A DNA stretch of 64,000 nt from Spartobacteria bacterium. Its GTDB lineage: Bacteria > Verrucomicrobiota > Verrucomicrobiia > Chthoniobacterales > UBA10450. The position numbers and the translations under genes are program-made. The notes under the pieces were generated by a model, which had not been told where the DNA came from, searched no databases, and saw nothing but the letters and a program-made list of their open reading frames with translations. The DNA lies in the NCBI GenBank assembly GCA_003134785.1, contig PLCN01000002.1, forward strand, positions 62,219 through 126,218. The letters are read 5' to 3'. Shown one piece after another: positions 27,875 to 29,591 of this stretch (position 1 is the first letter of the stretch; each line of letters begins with the position of its first letter).

Positions 27875-29281
27875 CTAGTTGATCATCACGACCGTGCCGA
27901 CGGGAATCTCGACGAACAGTTTCTTGGCAGCATCGGACGGCAAGCGAATACAGCCATGTGACGCCGGATATTGCGGCACAACTCCTTCATGCATCCCGAA
28001 GTCGCGGCAATTGAGCCGCATGAAGTAAGGCATGGCGCATTTGTAGATCGTGGAGCGGTGGTCGCGGTCTTTGTCCGTGATGACGTAATGACCGGGCGGC
28101 GTGGTGAAGCCGTTGCGGCCGGTGGAAACCCTCGTGGTGAAAACCGTGACGCCATCCTTAATGACCATGGCGCTTTGTTTCGCGAGCGAAATTTCGACGC
28201 GAAGTTGATCGGGCATGGGACCGCCGCCGAGGAGCATTTGCACACATTGCCAGTTCTCGGTCCACGCCGCGAAATAAAGCGGGAGCATTTTCTCGCGGGG
28301 CGTGGCGCGGTTTCGATCAGCCCCGGCGTCGAGCAGCGCGCGGACGTAATCGGCTTTGCCGAGCCCAGCGGCAAGCATCAAGAGATTAACGCCCGTCTCT
28401 TCCTGAACATAGAGGCGAAGATATTTTGATTTAAGCAGCGAGATAAATTCCTTCTCGGCCGCTTTCGGAACGACGATGTTCGGATCGCTGCCGCAGGCGA
28501 GCAGGGTTTGGAAAAGCGCCGGGTCGTCGTTGACGATGGCGTAGGCGATGAGCGGGACGGTGCCGCCTTCACGAGTGGGAGGTGAAGGGTGTTTGCTCAA
28601 AAGAAGCCGCACTTGTTCCCTCATATCCGCGTGCAACGCGGCTTCGAGCGCGCTTCGCGTGCTTGGGGTCCATTGCAACGTGGCCGGCAAACGCTCGAGC
28701 ACAGTCTGGAAAATTTTCATGTCGCCCGTTTCGAGGGCCATGGTCAGCAGGTCGGAGCCGGCTGCCGAGGCCGTCTCAAGATTCGACATCAGCGGCAGAA
28801 GGAATTGGACCGCGTCCAGTTTGCCTGCGGCCAAGGCGTAATGCAGCGCCGTGCGTCCGAGTGAATCGACCAGGTCCACTCTGGCCTGGCGTTCGATTAA
28901 CGCGCGGATCATGGCGAGGTTGCCTTGCATGGCTGCTGCCATCAGCGGTGTGGTCCCGATGTCGTCAGCAGTTTCAACCGAAACGCCCGCGTCCAGCATG
29001 CGCCGAACGACTTCCCATTCCTCTTTCAGCGCGGCGGTGACGACCGCAAGCTGGCCGGGAGAGGGGGGCGCGTTCCGATCGAGTTCCGTGGTGAAACAGC
29101 GGTCGATGATGTGTGATCGTCGTGCTGCCGTTACAGGCAAGGCCGCCGCGGTGAGAGCTGGTTGAACTGAGGCGTCCGGGTTCGTGGCTGCAACCGGATC
29201 CGGTGTTTCAGGGTCAGGCGCGAGGCTTGTCGCTCGAACCAGGAGCAAAGCAGCTATGCCGCAAACAAGAATTCGATCCAT
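27875..29281 (-). CDS. Ankyrin-repeat L,D-transpeptidase (YkuD) fusion
   Basis: It has 468 residues, exported: the ATG at 29281 opens a signal peptide (MDRILVCGIAALLLVRATS). Residues about 75-335 carry seven or eight ankyrin-like repeats (e.g. TPLMAAAMQGNLAMIRALIE, TALHYALAAGKLDAVQFLL, NLLMLAAGLGKADYVRALLD). Residues about 340-468 are a YkuD L,D-transpeptidase domain with the catalytic motif HEGVVPQYPASHGCIRLP, containing the conserved His-...-Ser-His-Gly-Cys-Ile-Arg. The enzyme would make 3-3 crosslinks in peptidoglycan or attach proteins to it, and the ankyrin array is probably a protein- or wall-binding platform. An ankyrin/YkuD architecture is not a usual one. Confidence 0.9.
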   Translation of the reverse strand: MDRILVCGIAALLLVRATSLAPDPETPDPVAATNPDASVQPALTAAALPVTAARRSHIIDRCFTTELDRNAPPSPGQLAVVTAALKEEWEVVRRMLDAGVSVETADDIGTTPLMAAAMQGNLAMIRALIERQARVDLVDSLGRTALHYALAAGKLDAVQFLLPLMSNLETASAAGSDLLTMALETGDMKIFQTVLERLPATLQWTPSTRSALEAALHADMREQVRLLLSKHPSPPTREGGTVPLIAYAIVNDDPALFQTLLACGSDPNIVVPKAAEKEFISLLKSKYLRLYVQEETGVNLLMLAAGLGKADYVRALLDAGADRNRATPREKMLPLYFAAWTENWQCVQMLLGGGPMPDQLRVEISLAKQSAMVIKDGVTVFTTRVSTGRNGFTTPPGHYVITDKDRDHRSTIYKCAMPYFMRLNCRDFGMHEGVVPQYPASHGCIRLPSDAAKKLFVEIPVGTVVMIN

Positions 29282-29591
29282 TAATGCGCGCATATTTCCG
29301 AATGATGGCCACGATGATACACCCTTCGTCAAGAGGTTTAGAGCAAAAGAGAGGCCTGCCGCTCCTTTAGTCTCAAAACATCGGGGCTAATAGTGATCTG
29401 AAGACGGCTCGCCCGCACCGTTTTGCGAGGCTGTTGCGCCCGCGGCTAAATCTGACCTTGACTCGGTGTCGCGGCGCAAAATAGGGTTCGGGTCGCCTTA
29501 CCACCTCTGAAAATTCCGACCTTACGCGAATCGCCGTGGTCGGGAACCTGTGGAGGACTTCAGAAACCAAACCGAAAAAGGAAGCCTACAA

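Follow-up and report, generated by a model that had tools for sequence, protein, structure and literature searches.

An ankyrin–YkuD fusion conserved in Verrucomicrobiota: a predicted L,D-transpeptidase-type enzyme joined to an ankyrin stack of variable length

Ankyrin stacks usually bind proteins, and a gene in a Spartobacteria draft genome that joins such a stack to a YkuD domain raises the question of what ankyrin repeats contribute to a putative cell-wall enzyme outside the cytoplasm. This gene was analyzed within a stretch of 64,000 nucleotides, referred to as the window. It lies on the minus strand as an intact open reading frame of 472 residues (stop codon included in the coordinates of Table 1). 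The preferred start, MRALMDR, is located four codons upstream of the ATG chosen in the first-pass annotation (27875–29281). Met-Arg occupies the aligned start in 23 of 30 aligned family orthologues, a position that was favoured when orthologue starts were chosen, four of them being set by hand. Seven same-genus orthologues are 65–79% identical to the window protein, and dN/dS against them is below 0.4 in every computable part of it. This conservation excludes a chance open reading frame, and a mis-joined gene was likewise rejected, as the fusion is conserved across the family, the order and the class.

Table 1. Features of the fusion gene, in positions of the window.
Feature	Position	Strand	Basis
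Ankyrin–YkuD fusion gene, 472 aa	27875..29293	-	ORF, Pfam, orthologue alignment
N-terminal hydrophobic helix, residues 1–24 (signal peptide or signal anchor)	29222..29293	-	model helix 2–23; hydropathy peaks in aligned rows
Low-confidence, fast-evolving linker, residues 25–76	29066..29221	-	pLDDT, dN/dS
Outer ankyrin repeats 1–5, residues 77–241	28571..29065	-	Pfam, model, designed-ankyrin superposition
Catalytic-proximal ankyrin repeats 6–8 with insert, residues 242–362	28208..28570	-	column occupancy, model, dN/dS
Helical insert between repeats 6 and 7, residues 276–301	28391..28468	-	model helices 281–285, 290–298; conservation
YkuD catalytic domain, residues 363–472	27878..28207	-	Pfam; structure matches to core model
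Catalytic His435	27989..27991	-	invariant in 74/74 rows; motif as in PMC12729407
SHGCIRL motif, nucleophile Cys448	27941..27961	-	S445, H446, G447, C448 and R450 invariant in 74/74 rows

Two Pfam domains are detected above their cut-offs, Ank_2 (1.8e-29) and, at the C-terminus, YkuD (1.2e-17; 65.3 bits against a cut-off of 23.4). The best NCBIfam match, PRK06132.1-2 (NF004785; residues 317–484 of a 485-residue reading frame), scores 115.3 bits, so that the protein falls below the cut-off for this family (169 bits). The catalytic region reads FGMH, followed by SHGCIRL beginning 10 residues past His435. We judge this to be the L,D-transpeptidase motif as given in a 2025 review (hydrophobic-G-hydrophobic-H-G-(S/T), 10 residues, (S/T)XGC-hydrophobic-R-(M/L); PMC12729407), the agreement being inexact directly after the catalytic histidine, where the window protein has EG instead of G(S/T). 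The C-terminal YkuD domain and the intact SHGCIRL motif reported in the first-pass annotation are thus both borne out. The catalytic fold, the histidine, the cysteine and the (S/T)XGC-hydrophobic-R-(M/L) motif are common to the window protein and the YkuD L,D-transpeptidases LdtMt1, LdtMt2, Ldtfm, B. subtilis YkuD and Stackebrandtia 5bmq.

The full-length AlphaFold2 model, built from an alignment of 74 rows (mean pLDDT 87.9, pTM 0.76), contains eight ankyrin helix pairs (residues 79–101, 116–134, 149–168, 182–201, 210–233, 248–266, 304–322 and 338–355), an additional helix pair (281–298) that constitutes the insert, and a YkuD beta fold after the last repeat. The earlier estimate of seven or eight repeats, for which structure prediction had been suggested as a check, is therefore matched by eight two-helix repeats and one helical insert. 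With the Ank_2 match, the eight pairs correspond to the ankyrin fold of stacked helix-turn-helix units of about 33 residues. Residues 77–237 of the predicted model superpose on designed ankyrins with Z of about 19–20 and an rmsd of about 1.9. Insert position 283 is a phenylalanine that is mostly conserved in the 74-row alignment, and the linker region has ten-residue pLDDT means of 37–61 over residues 21–80. All 50 matches listed in the structure search with the full model were ankyrins; the YkuD part was searched by means of a core model that starts at residue 243 and comprises repeats 6–8, the insert and the YkuD domain (pLDDT 95.7, pTM 0.89). In this model, the YkuD part superposes over 112 residues on LdtMt1 (4jmn) with a Z score of 19.3, the best value obtained, and an rmsd of 1.3; the scores of several further solved L,D-transpeptidases lie within one Z unit of it. 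The protein is probably an active YkuD enzyme that works outside the cytoplasm.

The predicted location depends on the N-terminus. A hydrophobic segment is found there in the aligned rows (14-residue hydropathy peaks of 1.5–3.1), a property that is partly built into the scan-derived relatives because their starts were picked by hydrophobicity. A lipobox pattern matched 15 of the 74 rows, corrected by eye to 14 (the window and L150 were considered false, while L165 was added as real). Two possible cleavage points are seen in the window protein, one of them followed by proline. Helix or lipid anchors are described as common among L,D-transpeptidases (PMC12729407). Of the earlier description as an exported protein, the export-type hydrophobic N-terminus stands, and a location outside the cytoplasm is what such an N-terminus would imply. 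The earlier suggestion that the ankyrins anchor the enzyme needs to be modified: anchoring is plausible, via the N-terminus rather than via the ankyrins.

To place the fusion among its relatives, genome profile searches were carried out within Verrucomicrobiota. All counts are lower bounds because the initial scoring was limited to a few candidates in each genome. Of 213 genomes in the order, at least 97 were matched by a 30-row profile (E≤1e-35), at least 57 of them among the 83 genomes of the window's family and at least 40 elsewhere. In an even draw across the phylum, at least 22 of 387 genomes matched, while a 74-row profile (A3, E≤1e-45) matched at least 69 of 384 genomes of the class. 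The distribution of the gene is patchy. No match at E≤1e-35 is found in genus g5 (11 genomes, four of them at least 90% complete), and partial matches in the order comprise the YkuD part only (G105 and G162) or are in pieces or cut (G061, G067, G069, G073, G074 and G078).

Relatives were also collected with two peptide patterns, and the best 80 loci were kept. Verrucomicrobiota titles are attached to 78 of these; the other two are Sulfurovum loci that match in the YkuD part only. Lineages among the matches listed include Prosthecobacter, Luteolibacter, Roseibacillus, Brevifollis and Akkermansiaceae, and the closest relatives among them are Spartobacteria MAGs (74–79% identical in protein), with Candidatus Udaeobacter among the further ones, which suggests a place for the host within the Chthoniobacterales. 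The wide alignment (A2, 74 rows) consists of 62 of the best 80 loci, 11 rows from other genomes and the window. Left out were near-duplicates of kept rows (L101, L106, L108, L111, L113, L114, L143 and L164), loci that were broken or truncated, contained N or had an uncertain frame or start (L119, L130, L134, L138, L169, L170 and L173), and loci in which a YkuD domain was seen without ankyrins (L171, L172 and L174). Both Pfam domains were matched in all 74 rows, which range from the family of the window as far as Akkermansiaceae and Prosthecobacter; this figure describes chosen relatives, since the rows were selected as such. The search for further fusions proposed in the first-pass annotation was thus productive, and the opposite outcome that it had envisaged, an ankyrin part absent in all homologues, did not hold. 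A tree of the YkuD domain (115 usable columns) requires three changes for the fusion label and is compatible with one or several origins; the Sulfurovum proteins (L171 and L172) lie in an unresolved fork together with fusions.

Some members of the set have peculiarities of their own. Some orthologues in MAGs are split across frames (L119, G069 C142 and G073 C200) and are either pseudogenes or assembly errors. A long-array version (L165) is found in a MAG labelled Akkermansia muciniphila (isolate HRSG-E1-bin-74), a species label that looks doubtful.

The host draft genome (4.39 Mb, 25 contigs, 97.09% complete) has 14 YkuD loci including the fusion gene, and only two ankyrin loci detected by Ank_2, the fusion gene and C3:86501-86677 (L177). 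The latter is short, contains an in-frame TAG, is located at none of the other YkuD places and is perhaps a decayed ankyrin gene. It follows that the other 13 YkuD genes are without ankyrins detectable by Ank_2, and a multiplication of ankyrins across the host genome was rejected as an explanation. Three of the YkuD paralogues (L005, L007 and L008) have the motif variants SYGC and SFGC instead of SHGC, and L008 also has an internal TAG in its YkuD frame. The genome contains two Peptidase_S11 genes, which we take to be of the type able to make tetrapeptide donors. Other origins of the fusion were also considered. No support was seen for an injected effector, the NCBIfam T4SS-Ank names scoring far below their cut-offs, and a plasmid gene was rejected, as 24 plasmid records matched but none of them covered 80% of the query at any one place.

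A literature search of titles and passages of open-licence papers found no description of an ankyrin–YkuD fusion, and a full-text search on ankyrin with YkuD did not return the 2025 L,D-transpeptidase review (PMC12729407). Table 2 of this review gives LysM, PG4 and endolysin- or amidase-type domains, together with helix or lipid anchors, as accessory parts of these enzymes, whereas in the window protein an ankyrin stack is joined directly to the YkuD domain. The fusion thus belongs to a known enzyme family, but its domain arrangement, which is real and conserved, is one for which we found no earlier description.

The two parts of the ankyrin stack differ in how they are maintained. With a repeat HMM derived from the family, the number of repeats per protein ranges from 2 to 17 across the 74 aligned relatives (two matches in all 74 shuffled control sequences together); in the window protein, this HMM counts seven of the eight repeats, missing repeat 4. 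In the shortest forms (L121, L123 and L132; 282–316 residues, 2–3 counted repeats) the catalytic-proximal part is kept, and relatives with 2–4 counted repeats show that the outer arm can be short or nearly absent. Repeats 6–8 and the insert have a mean column occupancy of 0.99–1.00 in A2. Mean information per column in this alignment is 1.30–1.52 bits for repeats 1–5, 1.79 for repeat 6, 1.52 for the insert, 2.01 for repeat 7, 1.99 for repeat 8 and 2.67 for YkuD; repeats 6–8 are thus less conserved than the catalytic domain over this wide range (1.79–2.01 against 2.67 bits). Among the seven same-genus orthologues, dN/dS is 0.06–0.12 for repeats 6–8, compared to 0.05–0.11 for YkuD, 0.11–0.26 for repeats 1–5 and 0.25–0.39 for the anchor and linker (one of the seven comparisons being saturated), all rough figures because dS is mostly near or above 1. 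These computations show that repeats 6–8, the insert and the YkuD domain form one conserved unit, that the outer repeats are variable, and that the whole fusion protein, outer repeats included, is under purifying selection.

The close association of repeats 6–8 with the enzyme could mean that the repeats regulate it in cis, by covering or gating the active site from within the same chain. We regard this as improbable. In its favour, these repeats accompany the catalytic domain in nearly every row, and the segment between the TPxG motif and the catalytic histidine, which in our reading is the place of the capping loop of other L,D-transpeptidases, is short: 37 residues in the window protein and in 65 of the 74 rows and 37–41 in all 74, compared to 47–69 in the host-genome paralogues (9 of 13 measurable by a simple pattern). 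However, the stand-alone Sulfurovum proteins (L171 and L172), which lack ankyrins, also have 37 residues there, and in B. subtilis YkuD the capping-loop place consists of just a few unstructured residues (PMC12729407). The short segment is therefore not tied to ankyrins, and a replacement of the cap by repeats 6–8 is a guess. The arrangement would be a fused counterpart of two cases in Bdellovibrio, where ankyrin genes adjoin wall-enzyme genes (PMC4686830). Bd3460 is an exported, periplasmic ankyrin protein that binds and inhibits wall DD-endopeptidases for self-protection, while Bd1180 (ankyrin) and Bd1181 (L,D-transpeptidase) are encoded in one operon, their joint action being only predicted by the authors (PMC4686830, the sole paper returned by a literature search on this pair). 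Bd3460 resembles the window protein as an exported ankyrin stack linked with wall enzymes, but it is a separate protein that inhibits in trans, whereas the ankyrins of the window protein share a chain with a domain whose catalytic residues are intact, which, judged by sequence, sets it apart from inhibitors of the Bd3460 type. Bd1180 and Bd1181 are the same two types of protein as are fused here, but as two proteins, and the likeness is one of description only.

The outer repeats bear on a second alternative, docking, in which the array would recruit the enzyme to a partner protein, such as a wall enzyme, a membrane protein or a protein destined for wall linkage. The common role of ankyrin stacks as protein binders, the example of Bd3460, the attachment of proteins to the wall by L,D-transpeptidases (PMC12274547) and the purifying selection on the outer repeats all agree with docking. 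The conservation of the surface does not. In repeats 1–5, conservation is lower at the usual binding positions than at the remaining exposed ones, both in the family alignment A1 (1.94 against 2.33 bits, p = 0.003) and in A2 (0.94 against 1.20 bits, p = 0.003), the register having been assigned by hand and both the register and the list of positions presumed from designed ankyrins. Repeat 4 alone shows the opposite direction in A1, through Trp208, and repeats 6–8 are without such a difference (p = 0.32 and 0.90). The contrast in repeats 1–5 is the principal evidence against the docking proposed in the first-pass annotation. The variation from 2 to 17 repeats also speaks against docking, as does the gene neighbourhood, where no gene within 5 kb is common to more than 20 of 76 loci. 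The less conserved binding positions and the variable outer repeats argue against one conserved docking partner and in favour of a positioning arm. We thus consider docking unlikely, although it deserves some weight; a partner specific to one lineage, or binding via another face, is possible. Of the earlier proposal that the ankyrins bind a partner, the array within one conserved protein stands, while its docking role is weakened, as the outer repeats vary in number with less conserved binding positions and repeats 6–8 look integral to the enzyme.

The neighbouring genes were compared across 76 loci among the matches listed (L095–L170), many of which are closely related and have flanks of unequal length. 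In the window, the fusion gene is followed on the same strand by pdxH, a methyltransferase gene and hrpB, and is faced by a DUF4440 gene; this order is common to L095 on both sides and to L096 on the upstream side. A gene for an HtrA/Do-like protease (TIGR02037, 404 bits, just under the cut-off of 416) is located divergently upstream of the fusion gene in 19 of the 76 loci, 125 bases from the chosen start of the fusion gene in L098; a further weak HtrA match in L163 is far off. A gene combining a BadF-type (NagK-like) sugar kinase with the MurNAc-6-phosphate etherase MurQ (e.g. L098:1088-2839 and L153:5719-7596) occurs near the fusion gene in 18 of the 76 loci. It lies beyond the HtrA gene in 15 of the 19 HtrA-bearing loci, and in L153, L160 and L162 it comes after the fusion gene in the same orientation, separated from it by 31 bases in L153. 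Those three loci are among eight rows of a Prosthecobacter-group clade, the other five being without a MurQ match. The Chthoniobacterales loci are close relatives and do not count as independent cases; more weight attaches to the recurrence of MurQ in a second order, where it is found on the opposite side of the gene. The window contains neither of these MurQ and HtrA neighbours, and the host genome has a MurQ gene on another contig.

MurQ belongs to wall recycling, and this gene context therefore fits wall turnover. It is also the context in which the YkuD domain might be a turnover hydrolase, an L,D-carboxypeptidase or amidase, instead of a crosslinker. Not all YkuD domains crosslink: DpaA reportedly detaches Lpp. 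ElsL, which consists of a YkuD domain alone, is an L,D-carboxypeptidase of wall recycling (PMC8649774) and shares with the window protein both the domain and a link to this pathway. However, ElsL is leaderless and cytoplasmic (PMC8649774), whereas the ankyrin–YkuD family has hydrophobic N-termini and the window protein has ankyrins and, in the model, a hydrophobic N-terminal helix that distinguishes it from the ElsL type. Since the catalytic motif of the L,D-transpeptidases is also retained, we consider a hydrolase very unlikely.

We therefore favour a wall L,D-transpeptidase with integral repeats 6–8 and an outer positioning arm, although for this account as a whole the chances appear evenly balanced. 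The alternatives overlap with it and with each other, and our estimates need not add up to certainty. In the favoured account, the protein would be a periplasmic L,D-transpeptidase of the YkuD type, with a membrane-inserting N-terminus by which it would be exported and, at least initially, kept at the membrane; from there a rigid ankyrin stack would extend, bearing the catalytic domain at its far end. Cys448 would join wall stem peptides, forming 3-3 crosslinks or using another acceptor. Repeats 6–8 and the insert may shape or steady the catalytic domain, while the outer repeats would mainly be a spacer or positioning arm that sets the working distance of the enzyme from the membrane; any docking of proteins would be lineage-specific. 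A bolder version is that the ankyrins act as a ruler, with the number of outer repeats setting the distance from the membrane at which the wall is crosslinked or membrane proteins are joined to it, and with repeats 6–8 and the insert replacing the short capping loop. We consider this version doubtful. As the number of repeats is variable, the idea of distance setting is directly testable by adding or removing repeats.

If the ruler reading were true, the fusion would be the first L,D-transpeptidase known to us in which a repeat stack provides both the reach and the cover of the active site. The presence of both protein types in one chain is also indirect support for the ankyrin/L,D-transpeptidase pair predicted in Bdellovibrio. 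Verrucomicrobiota are common in soil and gut, and to our knowledge their wall crosslinking has been little described. The ankyrin-armed family of the L,D-transpeptidase type provides a defined handle on wall crosslinking in these bacteria.
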